DNA from: Bradyrhizobium sp. NP1
GTDB taxonomy: Bacteria; Pseudomonadota; Alphaproteobacteria; Rhizobiales; Xanthobacteraceae
Direction of reading: 5' to 3'
DNA length: 64,000 bases
Assembly (NCBI RefSeq): GCF_030378205.1
Contig: NZ_CP127385.1
Coordinates: forward strand, 3,946,001-4,010,000
A program made the position numbers and the translations under genes. The notes below the pieces were generated by a model, which had not been told where the DNA came from, did no database searches, and saw nothing but the letters and a program-made list of their open reading frames with translations. Shown here piece after piece: positions 3,906 through 24,996 of this stretch (its first letter is position 1; each line of letters begins with the position of its first letter).

Positions 3906-3995
3906 TGGCGGAAGGGGTGGGATTCGAACCCACGGTACCCTTGCAGGCACGCCGGTTTTCAAGACCGGTCGATTAAACCACTCTCGCACCCTTCC
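3906..3995 (-). tRNA. tRNA-Ser(TGA), hybrid gene rebuilt at the attL junction
   Basis: On the minus strand the 90-base gene folds as a class II tRNA: acceptor GGAAGGG/CCCTTCC, discriminator G, encoded CCA at 3906-3908, T-arm with GTTCGAATC, a long variable arm, and anticodon loop CTTGAAA (anticodon TGA). The D-stem is CGA/TCG. The displaced copy of the 5' half at 27787-27825 has the usual GCC/GGC D-stem. The 3' half (3906-3969) is therefore host DNA and the 5' half, with its promoter, comes from the element. Pairing is preserved in all stems, so the gene should be functional. Confidence 0.93.
3957..3969. repeat. attL core
   Basis: TTTCAAGACCGGT inside the tRNA-Ser gene is identical to 27787-27799. 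To its left the sequence is the normal tRNA 3' half; to its right it is the element's substitute 5' half. Confidence 0.88.
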
Positions 3996-4050
3996 AACCG
4001 ATTGAAATCGCTATCTTATTGGGTAATGCGCGATTTCTGAAAAGACGCCG

Positions 4051-4073
4051 TTGCTACCCTTTTGCTACCCAAC
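4051..4073. repeat. Arm-type integrase repeats, left end
   Basis: Two tandem copies of TTGCTACCC separated by two or three bases, ending in CAAC, lie about 90 bases inside the left junction and overlap the last codons of the integrase gene. A nearly identical pair lies at 27641-27662 in the same orientation. Tandem short repeats at both element ends are what the N-terminal domain of tyrosine integrases binds. Confidence 0.65.
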
Positions 4074-5231
4074 GTCTTTCGCGCGCTTGTTTATGGCCGT
4101 GCGCAGGGCGTCGTCAACCGCCGTGGCGGCTTCGCCCTGCATGTTCGGCATCAGGTGGCTGTAGATGTCCATCGTGATCGCAATCGAGGAATGGCCAAGC
4201 CGTTCCTGAACGATCTTGGGATGGACCTTCGCGGCGAGCATGTGGCTTGCGTGGCTGTGCCTCAGCTTGTGCAGGGTAACGCCCCATTCCTTTAGGAACG
4301 CCGACATGACGTGCGTCAGGCTCCGCGGCTGGACGGGGTCGCCGTCGGCCTTCGTTACGACGTGCCAACCATCATCAACCCTGACGCCAAGCCGCAGCAG
4401 TTCCTGAGCCTGCGTCAGCCGCCAGCGGCGCAATTCTTCCACGGCAAGGGAGGGAAGGGCGATCGTCCTGATCTTGCCGTTCTTGGCTTCCTTCTCCCGG
4501 ATTTCGCCGGCGTCCGTTTGCTCAGTGCTGGCGACGACCGCCAGCTGGCCGTTGTCCAGATCGATCGCGCGCCAGCGCAGGGCGGTAATCTCGCCCCGGC
4601 GCAGTCCGCACAGGCTTGCCAATACCAACGGGATGAATAGCCGCCGCTCGCGCGCGGCGTCGAAAACGGTCGCCGTGGTCGGCGCGTCGATCGTGACGAC
4701 CGGCTTCCGTTCGATCTTTGGCCGGTCCCGCTTTTCGAGCAGCGCGGCCGGGTTGCGGGCGATCAGCTTCCAGCGCTCCGCTTGCGACAGCGCTTCGTAA
4801 AGCGCCCGATGAATGTGATGCACCGTACGCGGCGCCAAGCCGCCCTTGCCGTCGCGGCGACCGCTTTCCAGCAGCTTGGCGTAAGCCTCGCTGATTTCGA
4901 TCGGTTGCAGTTTCGACAGCAACTTCGCGCCGAGGAACGGCGTGAGGTTTTTGTTCAGCAGATCGCCGTACCGTTCATGCGTGCGGGGGGAGACGTTTGG
5001 CTTGATGTGGTTCAGCCAGCGCCCGAAGAACTGCAACAGGGTAAGCTTGGAAGGTTCGACGTAGGCGCCGCCCTTCATTTCAGAGATTAGACGGGCGCAC
5101 TCGATTTGCGCCTGTCGCTTTGTGCCCTTGTAGGAATGCCATTTCCGCTTCCGCTTGCCTGTCGCCGGATCGCGCTGGTCAAGGATGATCGCCCAATGGC
5201 CCGGTGAGCGTTCACGGATCGAACCCTTCAT
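4065..5231 (-). CDS. Tyrosine recombinase/phage integrase
   Basis: This 388-residue protein has the usual three parts: an N-terminal arm-binding domain (about 1-55, MKGSIRERSPGHWAI), a core-binding domain (about 65-165, LQFFGRWLNHIKPNVS) and a catalytic domain. Catalytic signatures are the first Arg in LCGLRRGEITAL, the second His-x-x-Arg in LHKLRHSHAS, the LGHSSI box, and the nucleophile Tyr in MDIYSHLMP. Its gene lies directly inside the left junction and its 3' end overlaps the left arm repeats. Its start overlaps the stop of the upstream gene by four bases (ATGA), so the two are translationally coupled. It should catalyse integration at the tRNA-Ser anticodon loop. Confidence 0.95.
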   Translation of the reverse strand: MKGSIRERSPGHWAIILDQRDPATGKRKRKWHSYKGTKRQAQIECARLISEMKGGAYVEPSKLTLLQFFGRWLNHIKPNVSPRTHERYGDLLNKNLTPFLGAKLLSKLQPIEISEAYAKLLESGRRDGKGGLAPRTVHHIHRALYEALSQAERWKLIARNPAALLEKRDRPKIERKPVVTIDAPTTATVFDAARERRLFIPLVLASLCGLRRGEITALRWRAIDLDNGQLAVVASTEQTDAGEIREKEAKNGKIRTIALPSLAVEELRRWRLTQAQELLRLGVRVDDGWHVVTKADGDPVQPRSLTHVMSAFLKEWGVTLHKLRHSHASHMLAAKVHPKIVQERLGHSSIAITMDIYSHLMPNMQGEAATAVDDALRTAINKRAKDVG

Positions 5232-7921: not shown

Positions 7922-8227
7922 ATGATCGCGGGCGGCATCGAACTGTTCACCCTGCGTCAACGCCGATCTGCCGCCGGTGACATCTTCTTCACCGGCCGGC
8001 TCGGTAGCGCGCTCGTTGTTCTGATACGTGACGACGTCGAGCGCGACGTGTGGAGAGCGTTCGCCTGCGACCCCAGTCGGGCAAATGACCGTGATGACCG
8101 TGCATTGCGGGCGCGCGCCATAAGCGCGCCCGCAGACGATCACGACGACTGGAACGTAGTCGGTGAAGGCTTCGATGACCTGCCCGTCGATCTTGATAGT
8201 CCGCCAAGCCAACAGGAAGGCCGCTGA
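7922..8227 (+). CDS. Small hypothetical phage protein
   Basis: The 101-residue product follows a GGAG site. The N-terminal part (MIAGGIELFTLRQRRSAAGD, then FTGRLGSALVVLIRDD) looks like a small beta-rich domain, with DVWRAFACDP after it. The C-terminal half is acidic and probably disordered. I recognise the type from Rhizobiales prophages (small proteins beginning with a strand and an FTGRLG-like turn), but no function is known. Confidence 0.6.
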   Translation: MIAGGIELFTLRQRRSAAGDIFFTGRLGSALVVLIRDDVERDVWRAFACDPSRANDRDDRALRARAISAPADDHDDWNVVGEGFDDLPVDLDSPPSQQEGR

Positions 8228-10570: not shown

Positions 10571-12934
10571 ATGGCTAAGGTAATCGAGGCTGTTGCGCGG
10601 ATCAGCGCCGAAGACAAGACGGGCGCCGTCTTCGACAAGATCGCCAAAAAGATCGAGGGCATCGCCAAATCGGCGAAGTCTTCGGCTGAAGTCGACAAGT
10701 TGTCGAAGGCGCTCGCCCGTGCGCAGCAACAGATGGCCGCCATCGACCGTTTCGGATCGGCGAAGGGCGGCTTCGCTGACGCCAGGACAAAGTTTCGGGA
10801 AGCGCAGGTGGCTGTTGATAGGGCAGCCCGGGCAATGAAGGCCGGGCAAGGCGATGCTGCGGCGCTGGCGCGCGCCTATGAAACAGCGCAAGCTGCGGTC
10901 AGCCGGGCATCGGCAGCGTTCGAACGCCAGAAGGTCGCTGTGATGCAGGCGAAGCACGGCCTTGAACAGCTTGGCATCCCCGCCAATCGCGCGGCGGCGG
11001 CGCAGGACAAGCTGCGCGCGGCCGTAGAGCGGACGAACGCCGCCCTTGAGAAACAGCCCGGCAAGCTCGCCAGGGCCGCAAACGCGGTTGGTCGCGGGAT
11101 CGGCAACGTTCTGCCGTTCGCCGGTCCGGCGATCCTGCACGGCACAAAGGAAGCCGCAAAGGCCGGCGCCGAAGTCCAGTCCGAAGTCGTCAAGATGCGC
11201 GCGGCCGGCGTTCCGGAAGCCGACATCAGGCGCGCCATGGGCGAAAGCGGCGACCTGACCGCGAAATACACGAACGTGAAGCGCGCCGACGCGCTTGAAC
11301 GCTTCAAGGAACTGCGGTCGATCATGCTTCACCCGGAGGAAGCCCACGAATTGCTTCCGCTGGCCGTTCAGGCAACGTCGGCGATGAACGCGGTCGACCG
11401 CACCGGCGAATTGGCGAAGGGGTTGAACTTCGGCTTCCGCGGCGCCGAAATCTTGGGGCTGGGGCAAGACCCCGCGCGCATGCGCGCCTACATCGACAGT
11501 TTCATCAAGGCGCAGCAAGTGATGGGCAAGACCATCACGCCGGAAATGCAATACGAATTCGCGAAGTACGCGAAGGCGTCGGGCGCGACGCTGTCGGATC
11601 GCTTCAAGATGACGACCGGCGTTTCGCTGTCGCAGGAATTGGGCGGCCAGACGACCGGCCAGTCGATAGATCAGTTCGTCAAGCAGATCACCGGCGGCTT
11701 TCAGGGCAACAATCACAGCGCGGCGAAGGAATTCGTCGCGATGGGCATGGTCCCGCAGGACTACTTCGAAACGACGAAGACGGGCGAGATCAAGGGCATG
11801 AAGCCCGGGAAAAAGATGCCCGGCTGGCAAGTCGCGCAAAGCGACCCGGACAAGTACGTCTATGACTATCTTTTGCCGGCATTCCAAAAGCACGGCATCA
11901 ACTCGCAGGACGAGCAGATCGCGCAAATCCGGCGCATGTTCCCCGCCGGCCGCGCCGCGGACCTTGTGACGAAGCTTGTCCAGCAACGCGAAAGCTTCAC
12001 GAACCATGCGAAGCTGTACGGCGAGGCGCAGGGCCTCAACGCGACCGAAGGCAACCAGAAAGACCCGTTCGTCGCGCTGAACTCGCTGACGACGTCGCTG
12101 TCGAACTTCGCCGGCGCGCTGACGTCCCCCGCGATGGAGAACGCGGCAGGCGTCATGTCCAGCATGGCGTCATGGTTCGGCACCTTGGGCAACAGCTTGT
12201 CGAAGTTCAATGAGGACCATCCCGATTTTGCAAAGGTTGCCGGCGGCGCCGCGCTTGCTGGCGGCTTTGCCGGCGGAAGCGTGCTGACATGGAATTTGGC
12301 GAGTGGCTTGCTGACCGGGTTCGGCTTGCCTTCTGCCTCGGTTCAGTTGTCCGGGTCTGCGGCCGCGCTGTCGGCAGCGGCTGCCGAACTGTCGGCTGCG
12401 GCCGGCGTCGGAGCGGCGGCCAAGGGCGCGACTGTGGCGACGGCGGCCGGGGGCGCTGGCATCTGGGCCGCGGGCGCGGCGGCGCTGCCGTGGGTCGCCG
12501 CCGGCGCCGGCGTGGCTGGCGGCCTGTACGCGATGCATAAGCAGGTCGAAGACGCGGGCTATGACGGGCTGACGAGCGGCGAACGGCTGCGTCGGCAGCG
12601 CGGATCGATGCGCGACGTCTATCGCCGGGCGTTCGGATACGACGAACTGTCAGGCCCAGAACTCTCGCCAACGATGACCTACGGAACGGGGGTCGGCGGG
12701 GACAAGCAGGTCACAGCGCAGCTGACGGGCAGCGCCGACGTTCACGGCGAGGCCAAGATTACGGTCGAAGCCAGTTCGACGCTTCTTCAGATTGCAAGGG
12801 ACGCGCAGAACGCCATCCGGCTTGTTGGCACGCTGAACGCAAACGGCCCGGGATCGCTGGGGCATTCGTCGCCGGACGCTATCGCGCCGGCGCCGCGGCC
12901 GTCGCTCGGCCCGCAAGCGCCGATTTCATACTAA
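10571..12934 (+). CDS. Phage tail tape-measure-like protein
   Basis: The ATG at 10571 has a strong GGAGG-type site; the open frame upstream is not needed. The 787-residue product has an N-terminal helical, coiled-coil-rich part (about 1-200) and a middle domain typical of tape-measure proteins, including VKMRAAGVPEADIRRAMG and YVYDYLLPAFQKHGI. A long hydrophobic Ala/Gly segment follows at about 575-700 (GGAALAGGFAGGSVL), and a Pro-rich end. These proteins set tail length and pass into the membrane during DNA entry. Few tail genes remain nearby, so it is probably not in use for virion assembly. Confidence 0.75.
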   Translation: MAKVIEAVARISAEDKTGAVFDKIAKKIEGIAKSAKSSAEVDKLSKALARAQQQMAAIDRFGSAKGGFADARTKFREAQVAVDRAARAMKAGQGDAAALARAYETAQAAVSRASAAFERQKVAVMQAKHGLEQLGIPANRAAAAQDKLRAAVERTNAALEKQPGKLARAANAVGRGIGNVLPFAGPAILHGTKEAAKAGAEVQSEVVKMRAAGVPEADIRRAMGESGDLTAKYTNVKRADALERFKELRSIMLHPEEAHELLPLAVQATSAMNAVDRTGELAKGLNFGFRGAEILGLGQDPARMRAYIDSFIKAQQVMGKTITPEMQYEFAKYAKASGATLSDRFKMTTGVSLSQELGGQTTGQSIDQFVKQITGGFQGNNHSAAKEFVAMGMVPQDYFETTKTGEIKGMKPGKKMPGWQVAQSDPDKYVYDYLLPAFQKHGINSQDEQIAQIRRMFPAGRAADLVTKLVQQRESFTNHAKLYGEAQGLNATEGNQKDPFVALNSLTTSLSNFAGALTSPAMENAAGVMSSMASWFGTLGNSLSKFNEDHPDFAKVAGGAALAGGFAGGSVLTWNLASGLLTGFGLPSASVQLSGSAAALSAAAAELSAAAGVGAAAKGATVATAAGGAGIWAAGAAALPWVAAGAGVAGGLYAMHKQVEDAGYDGLTSGERLRRQRGSMRDVYRRAFGYDELSGPELSPTMTYGTGVGGDKQVTAQLTGSADVHGEAKITVEASSTLLQIARDAQNAIRLVGTLNANGPGSLGHSSPDAIAPAPRPSLGPQAPISY

Positions 12935-16935: not shown

Positions 16936-17397
16936 CTAACTCATCATGCTCCGCAGCTTTTCGTCGAGGGGAGGCAGTGCCTGACCACGTTTAACAGCTA
17001 ACTCGATGGATTGAAAAACGGTCGGTATGTCAGGCGTGGAAAACCACGTCACGCTGTCAACCCAAAGCGCCTCGCGACCTTCGCCAAAAACAAAGCCGAT
17101 GCGGGTTGCCCAAGTCCGTCGAAAGAGAGAAGTCGAAAAGCGCCAAGTGTCTATACTGATCAGAAACTTCGAAAATTCGGGGATGCGGTCCCAAGCGCTG
17201 CCCTGCGCTCCGGTCGTCACCCCGATCGCGCCGAGTATCATGAGCAACTGATTTTGCGAAATCGGTAGCCATCCGTACAGGCCGCCGCTTGAATTGAGTT
17301 CGGCGCTAGTCCGACCGCTTCCATACCCGCCTGGAAAACTCGCGAGGCCTAATGCCCAGTTGCGAAAATCGGATGGACTAACTCGCAAAGGGGTCAT
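16936..17397 (-). CDS. Hypothetical protein, last gene of the sigma-like array
   Basis: The 153-residue product begins MTPLRVSPSDFRNWALGLAS; its ATG overlaps the stop of the gene upstream. A Gly/Ser-rich region precedes LPISQNQLLMILGAIGVTTG, a possible hydrophobic helix. The second half has many aromatic residues (IDTWRFSTSLFRRTWATRIG). I recognise no family. By overlap it belongs to the minus-strand array that starts at 20213. Confidence 0.5.
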   Translation of the reverse strand: MTPLRVSPSDFRNWALGLASFPGGYGSGRTSAELNSSGGLYGWLPISQNQLLMILGAIGVTTGAQGSAWDRIPEFSKFLISIDTWRFSTSLFRRTWATRIGFVFGEGREALWVDSVTWFSTPDIPTVFQSIELAVKRGQALPPLDEKLRSMMS

Positions 17398-17639
17398 CGA
17401 ACCACTCCATGCTGGTCGTTCCGCCCGAACTGCGTATCAGCGCTAAAGCGGTCCGTAGCTTCGCCAACGTGGCGAAGCTTTGACCGCCCCTTGCCGGCCG
17501 CCCCGTTCTTCGTCTCCGGCTGAACAGCTTCATAAGCCGCCTTCCGCTTCGCGATCAACTTCGCGCGCTGCGCCGGCGTCAGGTCGCGGCGGATCAGGTT
17601 TTCTGATATCGTTGGAAGGCTATGTTCGTTGCGTGACAA
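17394..17639 (-). CDS. ParB-like fragment
   Basis: The 81-residue product contains ISENLIRRDLTPAQRAKLIA followed by RKAAYEAVQPETKNG. These are the end of the ParB/Srx N-terminal domain and the linker typical of phage and plasmid ParB-like proteins. The conserved start of that domain and the helix-turn-helix that should follow are both missing. It overlaps its neighbours on both sides. It may be a relic kept within the array or a small protein with a new role. Confidence 0.5.
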   Translation of the reverse strand: MSRNEHSLPTISENLIRRDLTPAQRAKLIAKRKAAYEAVQPETKNGAAGKGRSKLRHVGEATDRFSADTQFGRNDQHGVVR

Positions 17640-17877
17640 TCGCGAAGCCTTGCCGAAGTGCTTGTTCGAAGACAGGCTTCAGCCCCGGGTCCGCAAGTAT
17701 CGCATCGCCGATGCTGAAATCGGTCACGGCAGACCATTTAAGGCCGTCGTTTGGTTCGGGCAGCTTGTTCGCATCGAGCACATAAGCGGTACGCCCGGGT
17801 CCTTCTCCGAAGGAGCCTAGCTCGATGAATTTCTGAAGGCGGTTCACTTTCATTGCTCCTGCAAATGTGCTCGTCAT
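17620..17877 (-). CDS. Small hypothetical protein
   Basis: The ATG at 17877 overlaps the stop of the upstream gene (ATGA) and gives 85 residues; an internal ATG at 17853 (MKVNRLQKFIELG) would give 77. GEGPGRTAYVLDANKLPEPN and FEQALRQGFAIVTQ look like a compact alpha/beta domain. Not recognised. It overlaps the ParB-like fragment by 20 bases. Confidence 0.5.
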   Translation of the reverse strand: MTSTFAGAMKVNRLQKFIELGSFGEGPGRTAYVLDANKLPEPNDGLKWSAVTDFSIGDAILADPGLKPVFEQALRQGFAIVTQRT

Positions 17878-18440
17878 GTAACGAAGGTGCGGGGAAGTGA
17901 CTTAATCCGTTCCGTGCACATTTCCAGCGACGAAAGTTCGTCATCGTCATCGAGAGGCCCGAACGCTAAATCATGTGCCCGATATAGAACCGCCGCGAAT
18001 TCGGTCGCTAGGTTGGCGAACCGCTGCAACTGGTCGACAGAAATTGCTTCTGCGCGCGCACGCTGGCGGTCTACGTGCTTGCCCTCAATTAAGAGCCCGT
18101 CGAACGTGAACTCTCCGTGTGCCAGCTTGTTGCGAAAGGAATTGTATTTAATAACGACGTCCATTGCAGCCTTGATGAACGCCTCTTCATCATGGTCCGT
18201 CCGGACACCGTCCAATGCGGCGCGGAGCAGATCGAGCCGGGATTTGAAATTTGTGGCCGAGTAATAAATCGGCTTTGCCTGCCGCATGTCGAAGACCGTG
18301 ATGTGTTCAAACCATGCATAGAAGCCAACCTCAATCCGCGCCCAAGCCGCCATGGCCCTTCCGAATGCGAGAAGCGTTCGGTCGGTGTTGGAAAGCGTCA
18401 GCGGCCCGTCACCCTCCGTTTTTCGTCGCGCCTTTCTCAT
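17874..18440 (-). CDS. HEPN-like hypothetical protein
   Basis: I chose the ATG at 18440 because it follows GAGGAA at a suitable distance; the frame is open to 18491. The 188-residue product is all-helical. YNSFRNKLAHGEFTFDG contains an R-x4-H motif (RNKLAH) like the active site of HEPN RNases and HEPN-like helper domains, including RNase toxins. Similar FRNxLAHG motifs also occur in harmless structural HEPN-like proteins, so nuclease activity is unproven. It lies 37 bases after the ImmA/IrrE gene in the same array. Confidence 0.55.
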   Translation of the reverse strand: MRKARRKTEGDGPLTLSNTDRTLLAFGRAMAAWARIEVGFYAWFEHITVFDMRQAKPIYYSATNFKSRLDLLRAALDGVRTDHDEEAFIKAAMDVVIKYNSFRNKLAHGEFTFDGLLIEGKHVDRQRARAEAISVDQLQRFANLATEFAAVLYRAHDLAFGPLDDDDELSSLEMCTERIKSLPRTFVT

Positions 18441-18477
18441 AAAACCCAATTCCTCAATGATTGGCGCGGAACGCCGA

Positions 18478-19236
18478 TTAGCGCTCTGCAAGCATTCGCC
18501 TGTCGTCGAATACGACTAAACTGATAGTTTCATCACGTGTGACGCGAACTGTTTGCTCGAGAACCGTAAACTGCGCTGCTCCGTTACATTCAAACCACGC
18601 ATCTGCCCCGACTTTCCGGACGCTGCCGTCGTCGGAACGGCCGCCGAACTGAACGCCGAAGGCAGAGCTTTTCGGGTCAAGCTCGTCGCGTGGGAACCAA
18701 TGACGCGGCACGGTCGGTGCCCGCGCGAACCATCGGCGCCCGTTTGAACCGTGGCAGACTATAAACGCCGGGATATGGTCGAGGTCGACCAAGCGGATGG
18801 CGGTTGCGGTGAGGCTTGTCCTAAAGGCGGTGCCAAGAGCTTCGATCACCCCAAAGCTCAGCTTGCCAAGCGTGCGGGCATGCGGCTGAAACAAGTAGCG
18901 AGGCATCAGAAGGTCCGCAGCATAAGCGTCCGCGACTTTTTCCGGCGATTGCATATCGCGAGGACGATACTCGTCGACACGGCAGACGAGCCTCTTGCCG
19001 CGGTGATAACGCCAGTGTCCCAATTCGTGAGCTATGGAGAAGCGCTTCCGGCGACCCGAACTGTCACTTTTGACCGTGATGACGGCGGCGCCATTGCAAC
19101 CGATGATATGAGCTTCGCAACCACAAAGCATGCGGAAGCGAACGCGAGCACCGACGTGAAAGGCGATGGCCTCCAGGTCGATCTCGTCCGGCTGGGTAAC
19201 TCCTAATTCTTGGAGGAGCGCTTCCGCTGGTGTCAC
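18478..19236 (-). CDS. ImmA/IrrE-family metallopeptidase
   Basis: The 252-residue product has RFSIAHELGHWRYHRG, the HExxH zinc motif of ImmA/IrrE peptidases, then SPEKVADAYAADLLMPRYLF, the usual third-ligand and LLMP block. ImmA of ICEBs1 cleaves an immunity repressor, and IrrE of Deinococcus cleaves DdrO after DNA damage, so the family relieves repression by proteolysis. The C-terminal 120 residues (PAFIVCHGSNGRRWFA onward) form a sensor-like domain seen in longer members. It lies 9 bases after the 136-residue gene. A helix-turn-helix repressor substrate is not next to it; the sigma-like protein or its partner is a possible target. Confidence 0.85.
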   Translation of the reverse strand: MTPAEALLQELGVTQPDEIDLEAIAFHVGARVRFRMLCGCEAHIIGCNGAAVITVKSDSSGRRKRFSIAHELGHWRYHRGKRLVCRVDEYRPRDMQSPEKVADAYAADLLMPRYLFQPHARTLGKLSFGVIEALGTAFRTSLTATAIRLVDLDHIPAFIVCHGSNGRRWFARAPTVPRHWFPRDELDPKSSAFGVQFGGRSDDGSVRKVGADAWFECNGAAQFTVLEQTVRVTRDETISLVVFDDRRMLAER

Positions 19237-19245
19237 GAGGCGCCC

Positions 19246-19656
19246 TTAATCTCGTTTGAGCAAGCCAAGCTCGTTAATGGCTGCAAGTAGTTCCATAACG
19301 TCGGCATCGGTCAACTCGCTCTCCTTGCGGGCTGCGAGCGTAAACGTCGTGTCGTTGGCGTGGGCGGCCATAACCTCACGCAAGCGCTCGCGCGCCTCGG
19401 CGATTGGAATGGCGGGCACCGGCTCGAAGAGGCCGCGCTCGGCGGCGCCGGCACGCGCGGCACGAAGCCGATCTTTGTTGACGAGCAACACGGCTCCCTC
19501 GAAACGGGCGCGCATACGTGCAGCGTTAGCCTCGGGCGAACCGAAATCCTCAGTGAACTGAGCCAGAATTTCTTCGTCGGATGCATTCAGAATGTCGTCG
19601 ACCATCGCCTGCTTGAGGCGATCGAGACCGGCTTTTTTGTTCTCAGGTTCGGTCAT
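19246..19656 (-). CDS. Hypothetical partner between sigma-like and ImmA/IrrE genes
   Basis: The 136-residue product is acidic and helical: LDRLKQAMVDDILNASDEEI at the N-terminus, AARMRARFEGAVLLVNKDRL in the middle, and a C-terminal DADVMELLAAINELGLLK. There is no membrane segment, so it is not a typical membrane anti-sigma factor. Its ATG overlaps the sigma-like stop (ATGA), so both are made together. Position and size make it a candidate anti-sigma or adaptor and a candidate peptidase substrate; this is inference. Confidence 0.6.
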   Translation of the reverse strand: MTEPENKKAGLDRLKQAMVDDILNASDEEILAQFTEDFGSPEANAARMRARFEGAVLLVNKDRLRAARAGAAERGLFEPVPAIPIAEARERLREVMAAHANDTTFTLAARKESELTDADVMELLAAINELGLLKRD

Positions 19657-20213
19657 CGTTCCGTCTCTCGGGAGAAATGCTTTAGCAGCCGACGTCGGAC
19701 CAGCGTTCGTTTGCTGTCATAGGTCGTCCCGTTCAGACCCGTAAGTTGTTTGAGCTCGTCGGTATCAAAACCAGCGATAATACCGTCGACCATTTCGCGC
19801 GCTTTCTCGTCGTCGTCAAACAGGGAAAGCAACTCTTCGCGACCGTCCTTGAACACTAGGTCCTCTTCCGCGGACCAATCCGGGGAGGGTGGATCGACCA
19901 CTTCGAGCGCGGCACCGGCCATAATTGAGACGTGCGGCAACTTATTCGGCGCCTTGTCACGCTCCGCGTCAGCAATGCTGCTCATCGTGTCGATCAGGTG
20001 CTTCATCACATCGACCTCCATCGGACAATTGCGCGTTCCACGAAGCGTGCGTAGCTGGGCCTCCTGTAACAAATCCTCGAAATCCCAATCGGTGCCTTTG
20101 GCGAATACCTTGCCGATTTTGTGCAAGCGCGCCCAGTCCGCGATCGTGAAGCCGCGGATAGCGGCCTCCACGCCGGCGCGTGGTCGATGCTGCTTTTCAG
20201 TCTCAGTAGGCAA
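19653..20213 (-). CDS. Sigma-70/ECF-like protein
   Basis: The 186-residue product has a region 2-like segment (DWDFEDLLQEAQLRTLRGTR, matching the DLxQE pattern of sigma region 2). A linker follows, then a region 4-like helix-turn-helix (DTDELKQLTGLNGTTYDSKR, then TLVRRRLLKHF). Length fits a short ECF-type sigma factor. The region between, EEDLVFKDGREELLSLFDDD, is acidic. It heads the minus-strand array; upstream at 20214-20361 is the divergent intergenic region with an AT-rich palindrome (AAAAATATTTTT near 20273-20284). It could be a true promoter-selecting sigma or a repurposed DNA-binding protein. Confidence 0.65.
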   Translation of the reverse strand: MPTETEKQHRPRAGVEAAIRGFTIADWARLHKIGKVFAKGTDWDFEDLLQEAQLRTLRGTRNCPMEVDVMKHLIDTMSSIADAERDKAPNKLPHVSIMAGAALEVVDPPSPDWSAEEDLVFKDGREELLSLFDDDEKAREMVDGIIAGFDTDELKQLTGLNGTTYDSKRTLVRRRLLKHFSRETER

Positions 20214-20361
20214 ACATACGCCCCCTCAGACGCTTATGCGGTAATTCCCCCCGGCGCTGGACACACGCCCAAAAAATATTTTTCCAATGTCGGCGGGGGC
20301 CGATCGGCCCAGCATAGGTCATTAGCGCACAATTATGTGCCGCAACCCAGAAGGGAATTCA

Positions 20362-20646
20362 ATGGCCGACGTTCTTGTAACTTGCATCACGAAACCGCAC
20401 CCGAACAGCCCGCACGAGCACATCACGGAGCTGGGCAACCCGCGCGCAAACTGGAAATGGAGCCGCGAGCGGGTCATCGCGAGCATCGATGCGAAGGAGA
20501 ATACCTTCTACACGCTCGATCCGCGAACCGGAAAGCGCGCCAGCGTCGGCGTCGTCCGCCCCGCCGGCCGGCCGCCTTACGTCAGGACCTACGCCGACGG
20601 CGTCTGGAATGACAATTTGTTGGCGATGGACCAGTGCCCCCTCTGA
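20362..20646 (+). CDS. DUF3892 protein
   Basis: The 94-residue product matches DUF3892 in full: ADVLVTCITKPHPNSPHEHI, then WKWSRERVIASIDA, TFYTLDPRTGKRASVGVV, and PPYVRTYADGVWNDNLLAM. Its function is unknown; members occur in many bacteria and mobile elements. It follows AAGGGAATTC at a proper distance. A DUF2188 gene follows 24 bases later. Confidence 0.85.
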   Translation: MADVLVTCITKPHPNSPHEHITELGNPRANWKWSRERVIASIDAKENTFYTLDPRTGKRASVGVVRPAGRPPYVRTYADGVWNDNLLAMDQCPL

Positions 20647-20670: not shown

Positions 20671-20877
20671 ATGAGCAAGAAGCAACTGTTCGTCGAACGT
20701 CGCCCCCAGGGCGATTACGCGGTGCGTCGTGGTGGCGCTGATCGCGCGAGCGATGTTCTGCCGACGCAGCGAGAAGCCATTGAGCGGGCTCGTGAACTCA
20801 ATCCGGGACATGAGCCGCTGGTTGAACGGGTACGTCACACCAACGTCGGCGATCCGGATAAGTGGCGTAAGCCTTAA
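20671..20877 (+). CDS. DUF2188 protein
   Basis: The 68-residue product fits DUF2188: QLFVERRPQGDYAVRRGGAD, then VLPTQREAIERARELNPGHE and a C-terminal VERVRHTNVGDPDKWRKP. These small alpha/beta proteins are of unknown function. Together with the DUF3892 gene it forms a two-gene plus-strand unit between two long minus-strand arrays. Confidence 0.8.
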   Translation: MSKKQLFVERRPQGDYAVRRGGADRASDVLPTQREAIERARELNPGHEPLVERVRHTNVGDPDKWRKP

Positions 20878-20879
20878 AC

Positions 20880-21545
20880 CTACGCAGCCGCGCGATCTTC
20901 CTTTTCCTCGCCGCGCATGACGATCTTGAGCGCGTCGTCGGGCAACGGCCGTTGGAGCGCCTTGGCCTCATCCCACGGCGCGCGCATCCACACGTCGCGC
21001 TCTTCCTCGGTCGTCAGGATTACCGGCATCGCCTTCGGGTGGATCGGCGCGACCACGGCGTTCGGCTCGGTCGTCAGGAAACCATAGACGAGATGCGGCC
21101 CGGGGATCGGCTTCGATTTCGTGCCACGCTCGCCGTTGAAGGTGGTCCAGATGCCGGCGAAAGTGAACAGCGGCCGGCTCTCAGCAAGCGCGAACCAAAC
21201 GACGTCTTTCTTCTTCGTCATGGGGTTCGGCTCCGGCGCGTACTCGGCAAACGAGTTCGCCGGGACTAGGCAGCGGTTCTCCGGCTTGAGCCAGCCGCGC
21301 CAGTGCGGCGACGACGTGTTGCGGATGTTGGTGACGGGCGGCCCGCCATTGCGCGGTGGCGGCGGCATGCCCCAGCGCATCATGACCAGCTCCTGCGCGT
21401 CGACGTCAGCGTTGCGGATGACGGGCGCCGGGAAATCCGGGAAGACGCCGGGCATCGGCTCCAAATTGCCCACGTAGCGGTTCATACGCCGGAAGAGGGC
21501 GGCGATGGCCGCCTGGTTGGTGGTGATGCTGTACAGGTTGCACAT
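20880..21545 (-). CDS. SRAP (YedK/HMCES) family protein
   Basis: The ATG at 21545 gives an N-terminal [10 protein letters not shown]; the Cys at position 2 becomes the catalytic N-terminal residue that crosslinks to abasic sites in single-stranded DNA. Also seen: [16 protein letters not shown], which holds the catalytic Glu region, and [10 protein letters not shown], the His block. The usual NARSE segment reads VTNIRNTSS here, as in a divergent subfamily. The role is to protect or process abasic sites during replication. It ends a minus-strand run of small genes; phages and islands often carry such proteins. Confidence 0.88.
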
Positions 21546-21563
21546 AGGATTGCCCCGGGGCAA

Positions 21564-23176: not shown

Positions 23177-23821
23177 TTAACATTTCGAGAGGTCGAGATC
23201 CTCGGCGCGCAGGCCGATCGGCTCGTCAAGCTGTTTTTTTGTCGTGCGGCCGAAGGCGCACGCCAGCACGACCGGGCTGTCCTCGTCATGCAGAAGGGAG
23301 TGAGCAGCAGCCAGATGTCCGCCTGTGGTGCAGACGTCGTCGAACAAGATGATCGGCCCCTTCGGTCGTTCGAGCACCTTGTATGCTTTCAAGAAATGAG
23401 AGGCTTGCCGTGGCCCTCCCTCCCGCGATTTTTTCTGCGGCTCGTGAAATACCAGGGCTTGGGAAACCTTGAACTGGCCTCCGCTCTGCTCCGCGATCTT
23501 CTGGGCGAACTCAAGCGTCTTGAAATTCGGCGTCGTGGCCGATGTCACATGGGAATTCGGTATCGGAACGATCGTCGCCGCACCCTCGTGGTGGCGTAGG
23601 ATGTTCTTTGCGAGCGCGGGCGGAATTCGCGATACAAAGTCCTGCACGTTATTTTGATCGTAGACGCGGCGCTGACCGCCGACGTAGCTATGAAACCAGC
23701 CCTTGATCGGGTCACCTTTGACGGCCTTGACCATCTTGGTCGCGCGGTGATCCTCAGCGCGCCATTCCGCCTCGCTGTCGGTTAGATACGCGCAGATGCT
23801 GATTAGTTTAAGGTTGGCCAA
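23177..23821 (-). CDS. Phosphoribosyltransferase-like protein (ShosT-like)
   Basis: The 214-residue product has the PRPP-binding motif of type I phosphoribosyltransferases (GPIILFDDVCTTGGHLAAA) and AATIVPIPNSHVTSATTPNF, a ComFC-like element. The start is a TTG at 23821 that overlaps the DprA-like gene by 14 bases; an ATG about 30 codons inside is an alternative. A PRTase next to a DprA-like protein is the arrangement of ShosTA, in which the PRTase protein is the toxin and the DprA-like protein its antitoxin. That system was reported in phage and satellite defence hotspots of enterobacteria. Confidence 0.8.
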   Translation of the reverse strand: MANLKLISICAYLTDSEAEWRAEDHRATKMVKAVKGDPIKGWFHSYVGGQRRVYDQNNVQDFVSRIPPALAKNILRHHEGAATIVPIPNSHVTSATTPNFKTLEFAQKIAEQSGGQFKVSQALVFHEPQKKSREGGPRQASHFLKAYKVLERPKGPIILFDDVCTTGGHLAAAHSLLHDEDSPVVLACAFGRTTKKQLDEPIGLRAEDLDLSKC

Positions 23822-24563
23822 TTGCGCTGATGATGTCGGAGGTCGACGAAAGCACGCTCACCTTCGGCTGCCCCAGAAAGCGCGCGGGCCACGTGAGGGA
23901 CGGATCATCAACCACGGATTTCGCAATGAAGAGCCATCGACCGAGGCGAACGCATTCAGCGGCCTGGTGAAGCGTGCCCGACGTGTCCGATGCCTCGATG
24001 ATCGCGGTGGCATCGCTGATCGCCGCCATGACCCTGTTCCGCGTCGGGAAGTTTGAGCGGAAAACGCGCTCTCCAACTCCAAATGGCGTCATCAGGAGAT
24101 GACTGGAATAGATCTCTTGCTGGAGGCTCGCATTCTCTGCGGGGTATGCCTTGTCGAGCGGCGTGCCAATCACCGCAGCCACGCGACCGCCATTTTCCAT
24201 CGCGCTTTTCAGCGCCGCGGTATCCACGCCTTTTGCCAATCCGCTGACCACTGTCACGCCGGCTTTGACGAGGTCGCGCGCCAACTGCGATGCGCGGCGC
24301 CAACCGGCATCGGACACCTCACGCGTTCCGACGATCGAGACCGTCGGCGCATCTAAAATGTCGAGATTGCCGGCATAGAAGACCTTGGCCTCCCGGCGCG
24401 GAGAGGCGTCTCGCAGGAAGTCCAGTTGTCGCTCGTCGAGCGCTGCACGACCGATCCTGACCAAGAGGTCCGGAAGAGAGTAGCTGTGCGCATCAGTCGG
24501 CGGGACATAGGCGGCGCGGCGCCGCGGAGGCTCGTTCGTGTGGCTAGCTGCCGGTAGCGGCAT
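23808..24563 (-). CDS. DprA/Smf-like protein (ShosA-like)
   Basis: The ATG at 24563 follows AAGGA and gives 251 residues: essentially one Rossmann-like DprA core without the extra domains of competence DprA. Motifs: VSIVGTREVSDAGWRRASQL, then VTVVSGLAKGVDTAALKSAM, and FRSNFPTRNRVMAAISDAT. True DprA loads RecA on single-stranded DNA. As a short form fused by overlap to a phosphoribosyltransferase gene, it fits the antitoxin half of a ShosTA-like pair. The frame is open far upstream, but that part is low-complexity and lacks a ribosome-binding site. Confidence 0.82.
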   Translation of the reverse strand: MPLPAASHTNEPPRRRAAYVPPTDAHSYSLPDLLVRIGRAALDERQLDFLRDASPRREAKVFYAGNLDILDAPTVSIVGTREVSDAGWRRASQLARDLVKAGVTVVSGLAKGVDTAALKSAMENGGRVAAVIGTPLDKAYPAENASLQQEIYSSHLLMTPFGVGERVFRSNFPTRNRVMAAISDATAIIEASDTSGTLHQAAECVRLGRWLFIAKSVVDDPSLTWPARFLGQPKVSVLSSTSDIISAIGQP

Positions 24564-24996
24564 GCGGCGAATCCTTCGATGGCGGGCCAGTTTAGAGGCC
24601 CAGGCAAGGAGCGTCACGGGGTTTTCCCCAGTGCCAGCCCCTCGGAAGGTAAATCCGCGGGCGTGATCCGGGTTTCTACTTTCGTGGTCGGGGAGAGACC
24701 CCCAGACACGCAACTGCGTGTGGCGGCCCCTGGGCGCCTTTTCAAGGGGCCGGCGAACCTTCTTCTCGCGCTCAGTCCGTCCAGTTTTTGCTCGGATACG
24801 GCTGGTTTGGGTCCAAATTTGGGTGTCCCGACGGCCCCCCAGGGCGTATTTCAAGACCGGACGTCGACGCTCGACGTCCGGTGTTGCGGACCGCTTGCCG
24901 GCCCGGAGCATGGGAAGCGGTTCTGCTTCGGTACGATCGGGCGCCGGCGAGACACTAGTCGTGGGAAGGGTGCAAGATGGCTCTTTCCCGGATGGC
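24564..24996. other. Intergenic region upstream of the DprA-like gene
   Basis: I see no gene in these about 430 bases. It should hold the promoter of the DprA/PRTase pair. It contains a strong hairpin at 24856-24882 and, at 24849-24860, a 12-base copy of the att core (TTTCAAGACCGG). Confidence 0.45.
24856..24882. terminator. Perfect 12-bp hairpin
   Basis: ACCGGACGTCGA at 24856-24867 pairs perfectly with TCGACGTCCGGT at 24871-24882 across a CGC loop. There is no T-run. It lies downstream of the minus-strand gene ending at 24997 and may stop its transcript, or act as a structured RNA or operator. Confidence 0.5.

Follow-up and report, generated by a model that had tools for sequence, protein, structure and literature searches.

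We analyzed a gene array of Bradyrhizobium sp. NP1 (genome size, 7.7 Mb) that lies in a 64,000-nucleotide stretch of contig NZ_CP127385.1 (positions 3,946,001 to 4,010,000 of the forward strand). We refer to this whole stretch as the window and number positions within it. A preliminary description had reported seven minus-strand genes at 16936-20213: a sigma-70/ECF-like gene, a 136-residue partner, an ImmA/IrrE metallopeptidase, a HEPN-like gene, and three more. All seven open reading frames (ORFs) are present, and the close packing of the first three holds, with a 4-base overlap between the sigma factor and partner genes and a 9-base gap from the partner to the HELGH peptidase. The description overlooked the divergent genes DUF3892 and DUF2188 and the paired promoter-like elements that adjoin this trio (Table 1). 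The sigma factor, the partner, and the peptidase, which is of the CapP type, are a real, conserved regulatory unit.

Table 1. Features of the trio, its divergent neighbors, and the rest of the array (window positions)
Feature	Position	Strand	Basis
Extracytoplasmic function (ECF)-type sigma factor, 186 amino acids (aa), TTG start	19653..20213	-	Pfam at family level, AF2, Foldseek
136-aa partner, proposed anti-sigma factor with cleavable tail	19246..19656	-	Conserved between sigma factor and peptidase; fusions
Partner T106-L-A-A-R110 codons, proposed CapP recognition/cleavage motif	19327..19341	-	Family conservation
CapP-type ImmA/IrrE zinc peptidase, 252 aa, H70-E-L-G-H74	18478..19236	-	PADLOC, Pfam
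Promoter-like element toward trio, TGTCCA-N18-GCATAAG	20233..20263	-	Pattern match; weak by clade-left-out matrix
Promoter-like element toward DUF3892, TGTCGG-N18-GCATAGG	20288..20318	+	Pattern match; rank 1 in 20 kb
DUF3892 protein, 94 aa, first divergent gene, proposed target	20362..20646	+	Pfam E 8.4e-14
DUF2188 protein, 68 aa, second divergent gene	20671..20877	+	Pfam E 1.2e-9
HEPN-like protein with RNKLAH	17874..18440	-	Motif in aligned relatives
Array gene 6, ParB-like piece, perhaps a remnant	17394-17639	-	PHROG 3264

The intact trio, in the same gene order, was found in 26 of 31 examined loci with a partner match. The partner family was sampled from 8 loci in genome contigs, 19 of 265 genomes of the genus, 2 of 385 genomes of the class (this one included), 9 plasmid records (3 of which were fetched), and 1 viral contig; gene calls and start codons in the compared loci come from our own script. 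Five loci fall short of an intact trio. Both the sigma factor and the peptidase are broken in L045, L028 lies at a contig end, and in L007 a contig end truncates the peptidase and the sigma factor gave no match; L010 retains the peptidase with a partner remnant, and the viral L033 has only the N-terminal part of the partner. A sigma factor profile, which matched in 77 of the 265 genus genomes, led to 18 further loci, 4 of them trios and 14 with the sigma factor but without CapP. The co-occurrence that the preliminary description had proposed to look for is thus found, in 26 of 31 loci and then in 4 of 18. Trio hosts include Aquabacter, Sphingomonas, a Hyphomonadaceae metagenome-assembled genome, and Bradyrhizobium, and the trio is also carried by plasmids of Bradyrhizobium barranii, Cereibacter sphaeroides 2.4.1, and Fuscovulum ytuae. 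The sigma factor and partner genes overlap by 4 to 32 bases in all 26 intact trios, with script-chosen starts. Identity to the window proteins is as low as about 21% among the sigma factors and 24% among the partners, so the gene order has been kept across deep divergence. Sigma factor and peptidase distances correlate with an r of 0.90 over the 26 loci, in which the near-copies L041/L043, L046-L049, and L036/L037 are included.

The identification of gene 1 rests on its family and its fold. The Pfam model Sigma70_r2 matched 29 of 46 sigma factor family members at E<=1 (best, 2.1e-6); the window protein by itself gave no Pfam match, and no separate region 4 match was seen in the family. An AlphaFold2 (AF2) model of the protein has a predicted local distance difference test score (pLDDT) of 84 and two helical domains. 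Its top Foldseek matches are sigma factors, mostly of the ECF type, within RNA polymerase complexes (best E, 2.8e-3), and both domains align structurally to sigma factors. The sigma-70 part of the earlier label is borne out at the family level, and gene 1 reads as an ECF-type sigma factor; by predicted fold it has regions 2 and 4 with a flexible linker between them, and it is predicted to bind core RNA polymerase. Phage records searched with the sigma factor and the partner gave no matches.

The peptidase matches the PADLOC capP profile over its full length (E 8.2e-58, residues 3 to 243) and Pfam Peptidase_M78 (E 3.1e-12); a relative fused to the partner folds like CapP 7t5t (Foldseek E 1.3e-11), and the HExxH motif is kept in 26 of 26 intact trios. 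Of the 30 capP loci retrieved from around the phylum, the one in the window was alone in having a trio-type sigma factor and partner. Judged by sequence profiles, the trio peptidase is a side branch of CapP, because other CapP proteins match its profile at only about 1e-8 to 1e-22, L117 (2e-86) excepted. L117 (1474-2163) is a near-clade peptidase elsewhere in the phylum; within about 1.5 kb of it, neither a sigma factor nor a partner was recognized.

The partner is the least familiar member of the trio. It gave no convincing Pfam match (a weak HTH_IclR hit in 3 of 25 proteins; best E, 0.0085) and eight weak, unrelated matches among PDB sequences; structure comparison returned no anti-sigma family, an absence that is uninformative. 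No helix-turn-helix (HTH) repressor was recognized within the trio. What marks the family is a short C-terminal motif: xAAR[KN] is present in the C-terminal part of 120 of 120 proteins among the matches listed (155 relatives at E<=0.001), and the residue before AAR in those 120 is L in 118, I in 1, and F in 1. All 26 trios of the first set carry this AAR tail, in which M also occurs before AAR, and in the 4 later trios the tail reads MAARK or LAARS. Two natural fusions join the partner to the peptidase (L040, 8829-10040; L042, 9023-10231). In the predicted structure of the L042 fusion (pLDDT, 87; predicted TM score, 0.81), residues 108 to 112 (TMAAR) form the sole predicted strand of the partner half, with pLDDT values of 71 to 76 in the blocks there. 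Since a strand needs a neighbor, this strand may pair with the peptidase in the model.

The AAR tail varies with the presence of CapP. It is found in 30 of 30 trios with CapP versus 0 of 13 readable partners without it, when [LMIVF]AAR[KNS] is the pattern tested in the CapP-less loci; the 13 comprise 11 read by script and L062 and L063 read by eye, and L077, where no partner was recognized, is left out. In 11 of the 14 CapP-less loci a short partner keeps the N-terminal motif (E 2e-3 to 2e-5) without the tail pattern. The L062 and L063 partners retain a C-terminal part with AYG, by eye, at the aligned place of AAR, and KAAR occurs within a segment that varies between sisters in some short CapP-less partners (L068, L070, L072, and L076). 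This distribution implies that the partner's N-terminal part tracks the sigma factor and that its AAR tail tracks CapP. The CapP-less sigma factors form a branch of their own (L062-L070, L072, and L074-L077). Most of its members combine a short partner, limited to the N-terminal part, with the promoter-like element of the trios. On the viral contig L033, a 95-aa ORF (7935-8222) shares only the partner's N-terminal, presumed sigma-binding segment, and has no AAR tail; it may act as a decoy that resists cleavage, or the shared segment may simply be a common motif.

In most of the 24 trio upstream regions, the interval between the divergent genes holds two outward-facing copies of a bipartite element, TGTCCG-N17/18-GCATAGG, with a spacing like that of -35 and -10 boxes. 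The matrix describing them was built from 21 of the 24 regions, leaving out the near-copies L037, L043, and L046 (L048 and L049 were not extracted) as well as the right half of L005, where a start codon that is probably wrong gives a distance of -91. Over these 21 loci the gap between the 9- and 8-base boxes is mostly 14 or 15 (13 to 17 overall), and the distance between the two -35 boxes varies from 7 to 31. The latter distances cluster near 7 to 11, 20 to 23, and 26 to 31; when L060-L077 are counted as well, the clusters are 7 to 11, 19 to 23, and 26 to 31 with a few outliers, the first two lying near helical-turn steps. The left half was no better than chance against 40 shuffles in L039, L042, L047, and L050. 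Ranked by a clade-left-out matrix, although the sites themselves had been chosen with the full matrix, both halves placed in the top two of both strands in 13 of 21 loci (16 to 20 kb); in 20 of 21 (9 to 20 kb) one half or the other came first, L042 failing. In 20 kb of the window the DUF3892-facing half ranked 1 and the trio-facing half ranked 20. A site-derived pattern with one mismatch allowed found only this pair in the window, while at least two matches arose in 5 of 100 shuffles. Genome-wide there were 3 exact matches, 2 of them the known pair, versus 4 in the reversed control, and we therefore claim no regulon beyond the locus. The right-hand half ranked 1 or 2 in 10 of the 14 CapP-less sigma factor loci (17 to 18 kb, both strands), which lie outside the matrix and belong largely to one clade. 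As far as these sequence rankings go, the element follows the sigma factor rather than CapP, and this is our main reason for preferring a sigma factor promoter over a repressor site. The elements face the sigma factor gene in most loci, from which autoregulation by this sigma factor is predicted.

Recognizable immune genes are divergent from the trio in 18 of the 26 intact loci. Cyclases of the cyclic oligonucleotide-based antiphage signaling system (CBASS) with effectors account for 12, a count that includes the seemingly truncated CD-NTases of L046-L048 and also L049, labeled by its patatin alone; in the laboratory strain C. sphaeroides 2.4.1 the trio adjoins a CBASS operon on plasmid pDE. 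Other cargo includes ubiquitin-like genes (multiubiquitin, DUF6791-ThiF, and DUF6527 in L008; JAB and a BilD-like E1 in L051), a 6A-MBL system (L036-L038), and, in single loci, a GmrSD/NsnA gene (L006) and an HNH_5 gene (L034). Cargo labels of L037, L038, L043, L046, and L048 and the cyclase of L044 were assigned by clustering with scanned proteins. No recognized immune genes are divergent in 7 of the 26 loci, the window included, where the cargo is DUF3892 and DUF2188 and no recognized defense system. A DUF3892 relative is similarly placed in L030 and L035, beside DUF2188 also in L035. A small gene often comes first in the cargo, either DUF3892 (in these three loci) or a 92- to 100-aa protein that has no family match and that we take to be Cas2-like. 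The trio looks like a portable controller, because the cargo label needs nine changes on each of two trees, in which several forks lack resolution. In the window, a gene for an SOS response-associated peptidase (SRAP; 20880-21563) converges on the DUF3892-DUF2188 pair. In L030, a Bradyrhizobium plasmid, genes annotated as mobile mystery proteins A and B (11806-12839) follow the trio and a conserved 189-aa gene, and the same arrangement was assigned by clustering in L035 (11438-12477), a related chromosome.

We consider it likely that the trio is a self-contained, autoregulated, CapP-triggered sigma/anti-sigma switch that controls immune operons. The core of the earlier proposal, a sigma factor that is held by the partner, released by the peptidase, and then drives transcription, is the best-supported reading because the co-occurrence is conserved, the promoter-like elements come in pairs, the AAR tail covaries with CapP, and two proteins fuse partner and peptidase; its HEPN effector found no such support. 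We infer that at rest the N-terminal helical part of the partner would bind the ECF sigma factor and keep it inactive. By analogy with CapP and PprI, single-stranded DNA (ssDNA) arising from damage or phage replication would activate the peptidase, which would take the T-x-A-A-R tail of the partner as a beta strand into its active site. The cut would most likely fall at AA|R and leave an xAA end, and the sigma factor would be freed, perhaps after ClpXP clears the fragment ending in xAA. RNA polymerase would then start at two back-to-back promoters, one feeding back on the trio and the other driving the divergent cargo, which is CBASS, ubiquitin-like, 6A-MBL, or GmrSD genes elsewhere and would be DUF3892-DUF2188 in the window.

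In its most specific form, the proposal has an ssDNA-activated CapP cleave the soluble partner, acting as anti-sigma factor, at [LMI]AA|R, so that an ssrA-like C-terminal degron results and ClpXP clears the fragment; a dedicated ECF sigma factor would then transcribe the immune operon behind the second promoter, of whatever kind. We hold this version tentatively, judging the odds to lie somewhat against it. If it holds, the trio is a transferable sigma switch that controls immunity by activation and brings its promoter pair along with the sigma factor. ssrA tags end in LAA or the like, and the tag of this host was read as ANDNYAPVAQAA. Several published observations bear on the cleavage step. 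PprI cuts DdrO between Leu108 and Arg109, and the R109E variant is not cut (PMC4374696). The PprI-DdrO model places the substrate loop as an antiparallel beta strand on the peptidase, and DdrO R118A escapes cleavage even when ssDNA is present (PMC10904395). CalpT, too, undergoes cleavage, and ClpX/P is believed to remove it (PMC11417357). ClpXP degrades RsgI fragments that end in VAA, IAA, or SAA and not those ending in FAA; LAA and MAA are not among the endings quoted here (PMC12203970). One result weighs against the AA|R-degron proposal and lowers our estimate of it: DdrO R109A is still cut (PMC4374696).

The same parts could be read as a split CapH, in which the sigma-like protein, dimerized by the partner, binds DNA and cleavage by CapP derepresses both divergent promoters. 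CapH+CapP and PprI-DdrO do act by derepression (PMC13373217, PMC10904395), the elements form an inverted pair, and the clustered distances between halves could reflect one spanning complex. However, each half is itself a two-box element with the 17- to 18-base spacing of a sigma factor promoter, while the distance between halves varies; regions 2 and 4 of a sigma factor are both present by fold; and loci with a short partner and no CapP still have the element. We also considered the partner itself as a CapH, given that the PADLOC capH profile matches weakly in 25 of 25 partners (best E, 1.8e-4), yet this profile is unspecific and at E<=1e-4 matches 306 of 349 genomes and 14 of 14 control genomes. 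Most loci fetched with it hold a classical CapH, an XRE-type HTH protein. The partner family showed no similarity (hhalign probability, 0.2) to 18 proteins beside classical capP, an imperfect comparison in that these neighbors were picked by position and length and about four of them look noncoding. On this balance a split CapH is unlikely, and we keep to the sigma/anti-sigma switch.

Two further readings would detach the trio from immune regulation or widen the system. The trio might be a maintenance or stress module of mobile elements, ImmR/ImmA-like or toxin-antitoxin-like, near immune genes only by way of defense islands. It does occur on plasmids (the 9 records), and 7 of the 26 loci lack recognized immune genes while one has only the HNH gene. 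In the window, the array probably lies on an integrated element, because a tyrosine integrase (388 aa) adjoins tRNA-Ser (3906-5231); no second copy of the tRNA-Ser 3' end was found within the window, and the far edge of the island is thus not located. However, the cargo sits behind the second outward-facing element, which goes beyond mere nearness, and its kind changes while the trio and elements stay, so that we regard this explanation as quite improbable. Less credible still, to the point of being very hard to sustain, is the reading of all seven genes as one defense system with the HEPN-like protein as an RNase effector. The seven genes share a strand with short gaps, and the R-x4-H motif of the HEPN-like family noted earlier stands, as RNKLAH is invariant in 16 of 16 aligned proteins; its HEPN identity found no Pfam match. 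Against it, the HEPN-like gene accompanies the trio only in the window among the first-set loci, and genes 5 to 7 have no relative in the others. Within the genus, 4 of 265 genomes, counting this one, carry a HEPN relative, and the other three have no partner match. Gene 6 is similar to part of a ParB-like protein (E 9.6e-7). Thus, the trio of the preliminary description survives as a conserved unit, and the seven-gene array was rejected as one on the locus comparison and the genus-wide HEPN survey. The HEPN-like gene may be an extra passenger, perhaps cotranscribed. Its start is probably at 18440 rather than 18491, since the N termini of several aligned relatives fall near that methionine and this protein is listed with 188 aa in the database; it then has no overlap with the peptidase gene and leaves a gap of about 37 bases. 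Farther along the window, at 23177-24911, lie ORFs that we take to encode a ComF-like phosphoribosyltransferase and a DprA-like protein.

The trio resembles several known systems in part. Like CapH+CapP, for which the original paper is reportedly that of Lau et al. 2022, it has a CapP-type peptidase with a small partner adjoining and relatives placed at the promoters of CBASS and ubiquitin-like operons (such placement at an immune operon applies to the 18 loci above and not to the window itself). Unlike CapH+CapP, it has no XRE-type HTH CapH and carries instead a sigma factor and an AAR-tailed partner, and its proposed output is activation, not derepression. Proteolysis also activates ECF anti-sigma systems, of which RseA is an example; RseA and RsgI are membrane-bound anti-sigma factors cut by membrane proteases, whereas all parts of the trio look soluble from their sequences. 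The RsgI-type pairs otherwise share with it coupled genes and have the autoregulation and the XAA degron after cutting that are proposed for the trio (PMC12203970). CalpL/CalpT/CalpS is a defense-linked trio in which a protease is joined by an anti-sigma factor and an ECF sigma factor (PMC11417357); the gene order here fits that arrangement, with the partner as the predicted anti-sigma factor. CalpL, however, is a Lon-SAVED protease that senses cA4 in type III CRISPR, whereas the trio has an IrrE/CapP-type metallopeptidase (M78) and CBASS-like and other operons as cargo. PprI(IrrE)-DdrO of Deinococcus shares the peptidase family, a loop of DdrO modeled as a strand, and an Arg just after the cut (PMC10904395, PMC4374696), but DdrO is an HTH repressor and the system has no sigma factor. 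CapK+CapS and CapW/BrxR are, like the trio as we read it, exchangeable regulators at promoters of many kinds of immune operons and respond to DNA damage (PMC13373217), but these kinase/STAS or WYL repressors are unrelated to it as proteins.

The preliminary description knew no named system of this composition. With regard to the combination, this appears to stand: in openly licensed literature we found no description of a sigma factor with CapP, CBASS, or an M78 peptidase, although absence from print is not thereby established. The parts are not nameless, given the capP match, and the trio reads as a variant of CapH+CapP and of CalpL/T/S. While its individual parts resemble known ones, the combination of CapH+CapP-like sensing with CalpL/T/S-like output appears to be undescribed.

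Operons whose immune products kill or damage the cell must be tightly controlled, and the three Cap regulators CapW, CapH+CapP, and CapK+CapS are all repressors (PMC13373217). If our model is correct, the trio, by supplying a dedicated sigma factor, would add activation to the ways in which CBASS-like operons are controlled and would link the damage-sensing peptidase of CapP to the sigma/anti-sigma release of CalpL/T/S. The model predicts exact promoter boxes, a cleavage residue, and a degron, and it makes the small DUF3892 and DUF2188 proteins candidate stress or defense genes.

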